Source of the DNA: Gammaproteobacteria bacterium
GTDB lineage: Bacteria > Pseudomonadota > Gammaproteobacteria > Thiohalospirales > Thiohalospiraceae
Length of the DNA: 43,195 bases
Direction: 5' to 3'
Assembly: GCA_014762495.1 (NCBI GenBank)
Contig: JABURT010000092.1
Coordinates: 1 to 43,195, forward strand
Positions 12,600-16,939 of this stretch are shown piece by piece. Both the position numbers and the translations under genes were made by a program. The first letter of the stretch is position 1. Each line of letters begins with the position of its first letter. A model generated the notes under the pieces. That model was not told the DNA's origin. It did no database searches and worked only from the letters and a program-made list of their open reading frames with translations.

Positions 12600-13046
12600 T
12601 TAAACCCTGACCTTAACCACGATCTTTTTGACCGGTGCCGCCACCCTGCCCATGCCGGGCATATGCAGATCGGTCGGGAAGAAAATGGCGAACATACCCG
12701 CATGCATTTCTATAAAGCTCGGCTCATCACGATACAGGGCATAGTCCTTGTCATCGGAATAATCCCGGCTGGGCGCCTGCTGGTCCAGGGCGCAATAGCC
12801 CATTAATTCGCTACCCTTCACAACATATTGCACGTCAATGTATTTGCGATGTGCCTCGAGAGAATGGTCTTCATAGACCTGGGTGTCGTACTCATTGACG
12901 ATGGCAAAGATGTCATCGCCCTCGATCGGATGCTGCCCCGTCTCCAGTGCCAGCAGGTCGCTATTCTGTAGAAAATTCAGTGCACGCATGATGCGTTCCC
13001 CGAGGGGGTAGTAGAGTGAGGCGTTTTCCAGTCGATCGGCGATCAT
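12600..13046 (-). CDS. YhcH/YjgK/YiaL family protein
   Basis: This 148-residue protein belongs to the DUF386 cupin-like family (YhcH, YiaL, EbgC). Recognisable parts are the start MIADRLENASLYYPLG, the central EAHRKYIDVQYVVKG with its likely metal residues, and FAIFFPTDLHMPG near the end. Members are linked with sugar and sialic-acid catabolism and beta-galactosidase function, but no sugar genes lie nearby here. ATG 13046 is preferred to ATG 13058 because family members begin at MI.D.LEN and AGGT precedes it. The gene is divergent from the DAO enzyme gene. Confidence 0.88.
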   Translation of the reverse strand: MIADRLENASLYYPLGERIMRALNFLQNSDLLALETGQHPIEGDDIFAIVNEYDTQVYEDHSLEAHRKYIDVQYVVKGSELMGYCALDQQAPSRDYSDDKDYALYRDEPSFIEMHAGMFAIFFPTDLHMPGMGRVAAPVKKIVVKVRV

Positions 13047-13114
13047 GTTTACCTGCATTAAGGGTTGTTGATATGGCTGTTACACTATAGCCCTTCGTCA
13101 GGATAGGTGTACAT

Positions 13115-14167
13115 ATGCTTGATGTTCTTATCGTCGGTCAGGGACTGGCGGGCAGCCTGCTTGCGAGCGAACTGATCGCCCAGGGCCAGCGCATCCGCGT
13201 CCTCGATAATCGTCATCGGCATGCCTCCTCGATGGTAGCGGCCGGACTGATCAACCCTGTGACCGGACGGCGCCTGGTCAAATCTCCATACACCGAGGAC
13301 TGGATGGCGGCGGCCTGGTCATGCTATCGCCAGCTGGAATCCGAACTTGGTCTGGCCTTGCTGTTTGAAAAACCGATGTGGCGCCTGTTTACCTCCGCCA
13401 AACAGAGAGAGATCTGGCAGCAACGCCAGTCGCAAGAGGAGTACGCCGGTTTTCTGTCGACGCCCGACACAGAACCGGCTTCCCTTTATCAGGCTCCCCA
13501 TGGTATGGGCAAGGTTTCGCATACCGCCTATGTCGACACCAAGGTCATGCTGACGGCCTTGCGTGATTGGCTCGAACAACAGGATGCCTATCTCGAGCGC
13601 GAGGTCGAATACGAGGCCATCCATCCACGCCAGGGGCATGTCGAGGTGGATGGACTCAAGGCGCGACAGCTGGTGTTTTGTGAGGGCTATCGCGGGATGC
13701 ACAACCCATGGTTTGGTCAATTACCGCTCACACCGGTGAAGGGGGAGATCCTGACCCTGAGCCATGACACTGATCTGCCCGACCTCATTGCCAACTTTGG
13801 CAAATGGCTCTTACCCATTGATACCAATCTCTTTAAACTCGGGGCCACCTATGACTGGGAGCATCTAGACAACGTCCCGACCCAGGCGGCACGGCAACAT
13901 CTGCTCGACGCCCTGGCGAAGGTCCTGAGTCATCCACTGTCGACAACACTCCAGGCCCATGAGGCCGGAGTGCGTCCCAACAGTCGGGATCGTCTACCGC
14001 TCATAGGTCCGCACCCCGATCACCGGTCTCTGTACATCTTCAATGGATTTGGCTCGCGTGGCGCACTCATGATTCCCTATTATGCGAGTCAGCTGGCGGC
14101 ACATATGCGACAGGGTGAAGCCCTGCCATCACATTGTGATATCGCGCGCTTTGAGGACAGACATTGA
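13115..14167 (+). CDS. DAO-family FAD-dependent oxidoreductase, possibly MnmC oxidase-like
   Basis: This 350-residue enzyme has an N-terminal FAD dinucleotide motif (VGQGLAGSLLASEL, residues 7-20). The stretch MVAAGLINPVTGRR, typical of stand-alone DAO proteins, lies at about 41-54. The C-terminus has GVRPNSRDRLPLIGPHP and FNGFGSRGALMIP, standard for the glycine-oxidase/MnmC-oxidase branch. The family oxidises C-N bonds of amines. In MnmC the equivalent C-terminal domain removes the carboxymethyl group from cmnm5U34 of tRNA. The next gene, 1 nt downstream, is a YtqB/MnmM-type methyltransferase, whose family performs the methylation that follows. A role in the same tRNA wobble-uridine pathway is therefore proposed, not shown. 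A general amino-acid oxidase remains the alternative. Confidence 0.82.
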   Translation: MLDVLIVGQGLAGSLLASELIAQGQRIRVLDNRHRHASSMVAAGLINPVTGRRLVKSPYTEDWMAAAWSCYRQLESELGLALLFEKPMWRLFTSAKQREIWQQRQSQEEYAGFLSTPDTEPASLYQAPHGMGKVSHTAYVDTKVMLTALRDWLEQQDAYLEREVEYEAIHPRQGHVEVDGLKARQLVFCEGYRGMHNPWFGQLPLTPVKGEILTLSHDTDLPDLIANFGKWLLPIDTNLFKLGATYDWEHLDNVPTQAARQHLLDALAKVLSHPLSTTLQAHEAGVRPNSRDRLPLIGPHPDHRSLYIFNGFGSRGALMIPYYASQLAAHMRQGEALPSHCDIARFEDRH

Positions 14168-14168
14168 A

Positions 14169-14744
14169 ATGAGTGGTCCCCGCTTGGTGGAGCAGGTGCA
14201 TGCGAGGCTGGGCAAGGCGCTCGGCGAGGGTGACCTGGCGCTTGATGGCACCCTGGGCAACGGCCATGACCTTTGTTTCCTGGCCGAAGGTGTCGGGGAG
14301 TCGGGGCATGTGTATGGATTTGATGTGCAGACGGAGGCGATCGAGGCGAGTCGATCTCGTCTGCAGGCCGCCGGGCTGGCATCGCGTGCCACGCTCTTTG
14401 TGGCAGGTCATGAAACCCTGTCTCAATACCTGCCTCTTGGGGTCACGGGGCAGCTTGCGGTGGCGATGTTCAATCTCGGTTACCTTCCGGGCAGCGACAA
14501 GCGGACCGTCACCCGGACCGACACCACGCTCATCGCGCTCACCGCCGCGCTCGCCGCCCTCAGGCCCGCCGGGCTGTTGTCGGTGGTGGCCTATCCCGGG
14601 CATGACGGCGGAGGTGATGAGACCTCGGCAGTGAGGGATTGGGCCCATCGCCAGGCGGCGGCCGGATGCGGGCTGAACATCCATGTGCCCGAACACCGCC
14701 GCGGTCCGGCACCGCATTGGTACCTGATCACAGCCCCCGGCTAG
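14169..14744 (+). CDS. SAM-dependent methyltransferase of the YtqB/MnmM family
   Basis: This 191-residue protein matches the rRNA_methylase/YtqB family closely: ALDGTLGNGHDLCFLA (SAM motif I), VYGFDVQTEAIEASRSRL (motif II), then MFNLGYLPGSDK and VVAYPGHDGGGDE. These are the diagnostic blocks of the family. The family is long annotated as rRNA methylase; Bacillus YtqB was later shown to be MnmM, which methylates nm5s2U34 of tRNA to mnm5s2U34. The start ATG 14169 is 1 nt after the TGA of the DAO gene, with GAGGA about 10 nt upstream, so translation is coupled. The frame is open upstream, but those codons lie within the DAO gene. Confidence 0.85.
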   Translation: MSGPRLVEQVHARLGKALGEGDLALDGTLGNGHDLCFLAEGVGESGHVYGFDVQTEAIEASRSRLQAAGLASRATLFVAGHETLSQYLPLGVTGQLAVAMFNLGYLPGSDKRTVTRTDTTLIALTAALAALRPAGLLSVVAYPGHDGGGDETSAVRDWAHRQAAAGCGLNIHVPEHRRGPAPHWYLITAPG

Positions 14745-14780
14745 CGTTATACTGAGACCAAGCGAACTAGGGATTTGGAT

Positions 14781-15662
14781 ATGACAGCCATACACATTTC
14801 GGCCCTGCGCCACTCTGCCTTTTACTCACCCTTGCTCTACACCATCGGCAGTGGCCTGTGCCAGAAAGAGGGACTGGAGCCCCACTATGCGCCGGCCACG
14901 CCGGACAACCCCGTGCCCGAGGCGATACGCGCCGGCCGGGTCCATCTCGCTCAGTCGGCGGTGGCGGCCAGTTTCGCCGAACTGGAGGCGGGCGATGCGC
15001 TGGATATCGTCCACTTTGCCCAGATCAATGAGCGCGATGGCTTTTTCCTCGCCGGGCGCGAGCCCGAGCCCGCGTTTGACTGGCAGCAACTGGTCGGGCG
15101 CGAGGTCCTGGTGGACCATTTCTTTCAACCCCTGGCGATGTTCAAGTACGCCTGTCACCGCCAGGGTCTTAACTTCGATTCCATTAAGGTCATCGATGCC
15201 GGTGACGTGGGTGCCATCGATGACGCCTTTCGTGCCGGTCAGGGTGAGTATGTGCACCAACAGGGACCGGCGCCGCAACAGATGGAGCAGGACGGGATTG
15301 GCCACGTGGTGGCCTCGGTGGGCGAGGTTATCGGGCCGGTGGCCTTCAGCTCATTGTGCGCCTCGCGAGAGTGGCTTGAGAGCGACATGGCCAGGGCCTT
15401 TATGAATGCCTATCGCGAGGGACGTGAGCAGGTGATCTCGCGCCCGGCCTCCGAGGTGGCGTCAGTGGTGCAGCCTTTCCTGCCCGATATCGATCGGCCG
15501 GTGCTGGAGGCGACCATTACCAGCTACCAGGCCATGGGGACCTGGAGCCCGGGCGTCGAGATCCCGCGAGAGGCCTACGAAACCCTGCTCGATGTCTTTC
15601 TCCACAGTGGGGTCATCACGCAGCGTCATGCCTACGACGCGGTGGTTGCCCCGCCGCCCTGA
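14781..15662 (+). CDS. NMT1/THI5-like substrate-binding-fold protein without signal peptide
   Basis: This 293-residue protein has the fold pattern of NMT1/THI5-like and SsuA-type proteins: an early SALRHSAFYSPLLYTIGSGL segment, then GRVHLAQSAVAAS and the hinge-region LVGREVLVDHF. Periplasmic members feed ABC importers, but this one has no export signal and no transporter genes beside it. It may be a cytosolic binding protein or an enzyme, as THI5 is. The start is ATG 14781, preceded by TAGGGA with 7 nt spacing; a TTG two codons earlier is less likely. A -10-like TATACT lies about 30 nt upstream, so it may have its own promoter despite following the methyltransferase. Confidence 0.72.
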   Translation: MTAIHISALRHSAFYSPLLYTIGSGLCQKEGLEPHYAPATPDNPVPEAIRAGRVHLAQSAVAASFAELEAGDALDIVHFAQINERDGFFLAGREPEPAFDWQQLVGREVLVDHFFQPLAMFKYACHRQGLNFDSIKVIDAGDVGAIDDAFRAGQGEYVHQQGPAPQQMEQDGIGHVVASVGEVIGPVAFSSLCASREWLESDMARAFMNAYREGREQVISRPASEVASVVQPFLPDIDRPVLEATITSYQAMGTWSPGVEIPREAYETLLDVFLHSGVITQRHAYDAVVAPPP

Positions 15663-16048: not shown

Positions 16049-16939
16049 ATGACGTCCCTGCAATCTCACACCCTTGATACCTCACTGCCCGATGTCCAGA
16101 GCCTGTCCGAGGAGGCTCTGCTCAAACTTCAGCGTGAGGCCGCCGAGCAGGCCGGGCTAAAGGTGGAATTTCGTGATCGCCTCGAGGACGGGCGTGAAGC
16201 GGAGCCGATGATGGTGATCCCGCCGGGCCTATTCGAAATGGGGGCCGGGGCGGGTGAGTTTGGTTACAGCCCCGAGGAGGGACCGCGGCACATCGTCTCC
16301 ATCGGCTATGCCTTCGCCCTGGGCAAGACCCCGGTCACCGCAGAGGCCTTCGCTCGCTACATGGATGACACCGGTTTTCGTTTTCGCCGGGATCTGCTTA
16401 CCGCTCGTGGCCAGCAGCCGGTGATCAACCTGCGCCGTGATGAGGCCGAGGACTATGCACGCTGGCTGAGCCAGCAAACCGGACAGCGCTATCGGCTGCC
16501 CACCGAGGCGGAGTGGGAGTACGCCTGTCGTGCCGGTACCTCCACCGCCTTTAGTTTCGGCGAGTCGGTCTCGTGTAGGCAGGTCCATTTCAATCCTGCC
16601 TTTCCCTACGAGGAGGCCAGGCAGAAGCGCAAGTGGTATCTTCCGCGTTGCATGCCCAGCACCCTGCCCCTGGATACCGGCTTATTGCCACCCAACCGAT
16701 GGGGGTTGCAGGATATGCATGGCAATGTATGGGAGTTCACTTCCAATGAATGGCGCGACAGTCATGAAGGCACGCCTCGCGACGGCAGTGCCGGCAGGGC
16801 GGGGCGGGTCAAGCGCATCGTGGTGAAGGGCGGCTCCTATTTTGACAGCGCCATTAAGTCACGCAGTGCGGCCCGCATGCCCAGGGTCTGGGACGAACTG
16901 GACATCAACCTGGGCGTTCGACTGCTGCGCGAACTCTAG
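16049..16939 (+). CDS. formylglycine-generating-enzyme-fold (SUMF1/PvdO) protein without catalytic cysteines
   Basis: This 296-residue protein shows the FGE-sulfatase fold from about residue 50. MMVIPPGLFEMGAGAGE opens it, then GKTPVTAEAFARYM, RLPTEAEWEYACRAGT, WGLQDMHGNVWEFTSNEW and VVKGGSYFDSAIKSRSAARM. In true FGE the block after GGS carries two copper-binding cysteines; here there are none, so sulfatase activation is unlikely. The fold is also used by ergothioneine and pyoverdine enzymes and by binding proteins. No sulfatase gene lies nearby and no signal peptide is seen, so the protein is cytosolic and its role is open. It begins 5 nt after the DUF1992 gene. Confidence 0.82.
   Translation: MTSLQSHTLDTSLPDVQSLSEEALLKLQREAAEQAGLKVEFRDRLEDGREAEPMMVIPPGLFEMGAGAGEFGYSPEEGPRHIVSIGYAFALGKTPVTAEAFARYMDDTGFRFRRDLLTARGQQPVINLRRDEAEDYARWLSQQTGQRYRLPTEAEWEYACRAGTSTAFSFGESVSCRQVHFNPAFPYEEARQKRKWYLPRCMPSTLPLDTGLLPPNRWGLQDMHGNVWEFTSNEWRDSHEGTPRDGSAGRAGRVKRIVVKGGSYFDSAIKSRSAARMPRVWDELDINLGVRLLREL

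Follow-up and report, generated by a model that had tools for sequence, protein, structure and literature searches.

Which enzyme carries out the MnmC(o) step in organisms that have MnmM or an orphan MnmC(m) was left open by Cho et al., who named Bacteroides among the organisms without mnmC(o) (PMC9976899). The window analyzed here, a stretch of 43,195 nucleotides from contig JABURT010000092.1 of a gammaproteobacterium of the Thiohalospiraceae, brings this question to a single locus. A gene for an FAD-dependent oxidase of the DAO family lies directly upstream of a gene for MnmM. Is the oxidase the missing partner of the methyltransferase, or simply its neighbor? The evidence makes it very likely that the two make up an operon-like unit that carries out the two final steps of (c)mnm5(s2)U34 synthesis, with an MnmC(o)-type oxidase that is not orthologous to MnmC(o).

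The gene pair and its two proteins

The DAO gene (13115..14167, + strand) encodes 350 aa and the MnmM (YtqB) gene (14169..14744, + strand) encodes 191 aa. The DAO stop codon, TGA, occupies 14165-14167 and the ATG of MnmM begins at 14169, which leaves the intergenic gap of 1 nt that an earlier note on this DNA had given. Shine-Dalgarno-like sequences can be read 7 nt 5' of the DAO start (AGGATAGG, 13100..13107, + strand) and 12 nt 5' of the MnmM start (GAGG, 14153..14156, + strand). Because the second of these lies within the DAO gene, translation of DAO and MnmM is probably coupled. An antisense ORF at 14067-14813 is a mechanical ORF that nothing backs.

A YhcH/YjgK/YiaL family protein (sugar anomerase-like) is encoded on the opposite strand at 12600-13058, divergent from the DAO gene. 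Just 3' of MnmM, at 14775-15662, is a gene with a TTG start for an NMT1/THI5-like substrate-binding-type protein, which has no NCBIfam match. The gene at 16049-16939 encodes an FGE-sulfatase-like, PvdO-related protein (143 bits vs a cut-off of 500). The outer neighbors of the window pair are not conserved, with the exception of this PvdO/FGE-like gene, the sole neighbor kept near the pair, in one genome of the same family (L103).

The second protein passes the curated NCBIfam model for MnmM, NF053511 (170.1 bits vs a cut-off of 135), and its closest match in the PDB is the YtqB/MnmM of B. subtilis (4pon/8h0s, E ~1e-35). The motifs GNGHD (14256..14270), FNLGYLPGSDK (14469..14501) and YPGH (14592..14603), all on the + strand, are in place, and the full YtqB/MnmM signature claimed earlier is borne out. 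Residues D34, N102, Y105, K111, Y142 and H145 correspond to D34, N101, Y104, K110, Y141 and H144 of the B. subtilis enzyme; all are kept, and mutating them in B. subtilis MnmM strongly lowered activity (PMC9976899). The MnmM proteins of B. subtilis, S. aureus and plants belong to the same methyltransferase family with the key residues kept, and work in Bacillus and plants has established the methylation of nm5U34 by this family (PMC9976899). From its sequence, the window MnmM is predicted to methylate nm5(s2)U34 to mnm5(s2)U34.

The first protein belongs to the DAO family (PF01266, 126 bits), and its placement within that family is less straightforward. The MnmC1 model (TIGR03197) gives it 101.5 bits, below the cut-off of 174.2, and other members of its clade score 56-112 bits. 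The ThiO model (TIGR02352) scores it equally, at 96.3 bits, and this cut-off (250.8) is missed as well. When the AlphaFold2 model of the protein (pLDDT 93.7) was used in a Foldseek search, the nearest folds were glycine oxidases, iminodiacetate oxidase and MnmC, with a TM of 0.82-0.83 against the MnmC of Y. pestis. Iminodiacetate oxidase takes a carboxymethyl group off a secondary amine, which is the same carboxymethyl-amine chemistry.

The GxGxxG FAD-binding motif (G8, G10, G13; 13136..13153, + strand) is invariant in the DAO clade. Arg287 (codon 13973..13975, + strand) is equivalent to Arg567 of E. coli MnmC and to the conserved Arg of ThiO, and the position does not vary in any of the three groups, the DAO clade, MnmC(o) and ThiO. 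Arg345 (codon 14147..14149, + strand), in a C-terminal DIxR motif, aligns with Arg653 of E. coli MnmC; this position is conserved in 92% of the DAO clade and 100% of MnmC(o), and has no equivalent in ThiO. Both Arg567 and Arg653 are more than 98% conserved in MnmC (PMC3648344). The MnmC1-conserved Ser304, Arg567 and Arg653 are present in the window protein as S39, R287 and R345. The DAO clade as a whole conserves counterparts of four E. coli MnmC residues, Ser304, Arg567, Asp572 and Arg653, whereas ThiO does not conserve the last two. The GSRG-type motif of the clade is also MnmC-like.

In the trees the DAO clade forms one side of a well-supported branch (99/97 and 99/99), as do MnmC(o) and ThiO each in their turn. 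With E. coli DadA, SolA, PuuB and LhgD as outgroups, the trees do not single out its nearest relative, which may be MnmC(o) (AU p 0.49 for the union), ThiO (0.23) or neither. The separate clade and the missed TIGR03197 cut-off speak against a plain MnmC(o) orthologue. The earlier proposal that the protein has the DAO fold of the oxidase half of MnmC stands, with one amendment, that by the curated model the protein is no MnmC(o) orthologue. In annotation it is best kept apart from MnmC(o); it probably works like MnmC(o).

Distribution of the pair and natural fusions

The assembly that holds the window comprises 2.67 Mb in 228 contigs and is 91% complete. MnmE and MnmG, for which the earlier note suggested a search, are both present, on one contig, and the genome should therefore be able to make cmnm5U/nm5U. 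A fused MnmC elsewhere in the genome was named in the same note as the finding that would speak against a split module; no match over the cut-off of the fused model (NF002480) was found in the 91%-complete genome, nor was the MnmC(m) domain (PF05430).

The association of the two genes is much wider than one genome. Among 274 genomes drawn evenly from the gammaproteobacteria, MnmM is over its cut-off in 21, and the profile of the DAO clade finds members in 20, which score 245-510 bits; no other match exceeds 93 bits. Both genes occur in 19 genomes, DAO only in 1, MnmM only in 2 and neither in 252 (Fisher p 5e-26, a value that ignores shared ancestry). When counted by taxonomic family, the corresponding numbers are 12, 1, 1 and 157 (p 2e-16). 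DAO and MnmM are adjacent, with DAO first, in 18 of the 19 genomes that have both. The two are both present but unlinked in G079 and two Sedimenticola genomes. Strong matches to MnmC(m), found in 63 of the 274, are absent from all 22 genomes with MnmM or DAO (p 0.003-0.004).

That two housekeeping genes sit together here by chance, or for historical reasons alone, is very improbable: gene order is indeed common to related genomes, but the adjacency recurs in 18 of 19 genomes while the outer neighbors are not conserved, the pair is kept intact in at least 11 gammaproteobacterial families and another class with varying flanking genes, the two genes co-occur even where unlinked, and six fusions are known from the present survey.

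In a 398-genome sample of the phylum, the DAO clade was found in 37 further genomes, which belong to one family of another class that we take, as a guess, to be the Zetaproteobacteria. At most of the 29 loci examined in this class, MnmM is directly downstream of DAO and the gene ends overlap or abut. At two loci of this class (L222 and L223, family f198) MnmM is found ~1.1 kb downstream of DAO, a distance that indicates an insertion between the two genes.

The six fusions, all from this other class, are single uninterrupted ORFs of 554-583 aa (L202, L203, L204, L205, L206 and L216), and the genomes that carry them represent two genera. The DAO part occupies residues ~8-358 (16-373 in L216) and is followed by MnmM. 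Pfam recognizes a DAO and an MnmM domain in one chain, and in the two fusions that were scanned the MnmM half is over the NF053511 cut-off (195 and 174 bits). The fusions directly support a shared pathway. A 680-aa ORF in G067 was considered as a further fusion and rejected; Pfam has no family that matches its first 340 residues, which probably represent no more than open frame upstream.

Our literature search found no description of a DAO-MnmM pair or fusion, although Jaroch et al. 2024 may partly cover the subject. The abstract of that work, on alternate routes to mnm5s2U, reportedly mentions fusion proteins and alternate arrangements. The survey of adjacency proposed in the earlier note thus yielded a very strong association, natural fusions included. 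The idea of an alternative two-gene arrangement is supported, and the arrangement is not confined to this genome: it is found widely among gammaproteobacteria and recurs in another class.

The DAO clade and stand-alone MnmC(m) in Bacteroidia

Stand-alone MnmC(m), or MnmC2, is described from Aquifex and Bacteroidota. It resembles MnmM as an orphan nm5U methyltransferase that needs an oxidase partner, but has no family-level homology to MnmM. In Bacteroidia it is accompanied by the DAO clade. Of 198 sampled Bacteroidia genomes, 141 have a member of the DAO clade, 142 have a stand-alone MnmC(m), and 120 have both (p 2e-10, shared ancestry ignored); one partner only is present in 21 and 22 genomes. 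MnmC(m) is directly upstream of DAO on the same strand, with overlapping frames, in five Bacteroidia genomes; a further three have them as divergent neighbors ~1 kb apart. One of these MnmC(m) neighbors scores 186 bits with the curated MnmC2 model and passes it. The named Bacteroidota genomes were also searched for MnmM and none was found.

One oxidase clade is thus found with two different nm5U methyltransferases. MnmM and MnmC(m) share the substrate nm5U34, which points to DAO as the source of nm5U34. For many of the organisms in which the MnmC(o) enzyme is sought, among MnmM-bearing proteobacteria and most of the sampled Bacteroidia, the clade supplies a concrete candidate. We lean, with moderate confidence, towards a broader interpretation in which this as yet unnamed clade provides the MnmC(o)-type enzyme in many bacteria that supposedly lack one. 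Its methyltransferase partner would be MnmM in gammaproteobacteria and in a further class of proteobacteria, and stand-alone MnmC(m) in Bacteroidia. The MnmM fusion would then be a second, independently assembled bifunctional enzyme of the MnmC kind. If this is true, a bifunctional enzyme like MnmC has evolved twice, the second time with a different methyltransferase.

The proposed reaction and its alternatives

The enzymes of the MnmE-MnmG families make cmnm5U34, and in the proposed pathway they would do so here in tRNA. The DAO protein is predicted to convert cmnm5U34 to nm5U34. The conserved Arg would hold the carboxylate of cmnm5U34 while the enzyme, with FAD, would oxidize the carboxymethyl C-N bond. 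The resulting imine would hydrolyze to nm5U34 and glyoxylate, and MnmM, with SAM, would convert nm5U34 to mnm5U34.

The MnmC of E. coli and other proteobacteria likewise combines a DAO-fold FAD oxidase and a SAM methyltransferase, for the conversion of cmnm5U34 to mnm5U34 that is predicted for the pair here, and the active-site Arg and C-terminal Arg are common to MnmC and DAO. However, MnmC is one polypeptide, whereas DAO and MnmM are encoded by two genes here and form one polypeptide in some relatives. The oxidase of MnmC is MnmC(o), whereas DAO is from a separate clade under the MnmC1 cut-off. The methyltransferase of MnmC is MnmC(m), a different family from MnmM. The order of the domains differs as well, with the oxidase first in the DAO-MnmM fusions and the methyltransferase first in MnmC. 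There is good reason to expect that the module resembles MnmC in action while its parts are a different oxidase clade and a methyltransferase family that is not homologous.

Another reaction on U34 could be imagined for DAO, such as a switch that demethylates mnm5U34 to nm5U34, or the synthesis of a different derivative together with MnmM and MnmC(m). The genome context indicates the nm5U/mnm5U step and does not fix the reaction, and the DAO clade is no proven orthologue of MnmC(o). But the Arg that in glycine oxidases holds a carboxylate is invariant, which suits a substrate with a carboxymethyl group more than a methylamine. In addition, cmnm5 tRNA would not get as far as MnmM unless an oxidase acted first, and MnmC pairs the same activities. 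Such a role is improbable.

It is also quite improbable that DAO is one more glycine oxidase of the ThiO kind, or an amine oxidase for some other small molecule, with no tie to MnmM beyond its position. Among solved structures, those of ThiO and glycine oxidase come nearest to DAO in sequence and fold, the FAD motif and the carboxylate-binding Arg are shared with ThiO, and the gene that follows MnmM is NMT1/THI5-like. That gene does not recur next to the pair, however, and another contig of the genome encodes a true ThiO (292.6 bits vs the cut-off of 250.8), the best other match of the MnmC model, which already serves thiamine synthesis. The DAO protein, for its part, is 155 bits under the ThiO cut-off, belongs to its own clade and has the C-terminal Arg that ThiO lacks, all of which disfavor ThiO as its identity. 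Adjacency and fusion to MnmM, and adjacency to MnmC(m), recur over phyla. The preferred interpretation remains a tRNA oxidase that acts on the carboxymethyl group of cmnm5U34.

A different partner for MnmM was also considered. In Bacillus this partner is, according to what Jaroch et al. 2024 are said to report, MnmL, a radical-SAM protein. The MnmL model (TIGR01212) finds no protein over the cut-off in the window genome and is passed in 6 of 24 searched genomes. Because most genomes with DAO and MnmM have no MnmL over the cut-off, MnmL cannot account for the pattern. The TIGR01212 family also takes in E. coli YhcC, and its presence is not diagnostic of MnmL. For the MnmM of Bacillus, no FAD oxidase partner was found (PMC9976899).

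The few gammaproteobacterial genomes with one partner are of two kinds. G155 and G266 (L027 and L028), which are from one taxonomic family, have MnmM beside an OmpA-like gene, and a search of both found no member of the DAO clade, MnmC(m), or MnmL over the cut-off. MnmM is apparently without an oxidase partner in these genomes, where the ammonium route of MnmEG could feed it directly. The reverse case is G034, a complete genome with a member of the DAO clade (L091:5600-6742) and without MnmM or a strong match to MnmC(m). Here nm5U is perhaps the end product, or perhaps another methylase exists; G034 does encode a protein of the TIGR01212 (MnmL/YhcC) family that is over the cut-off.
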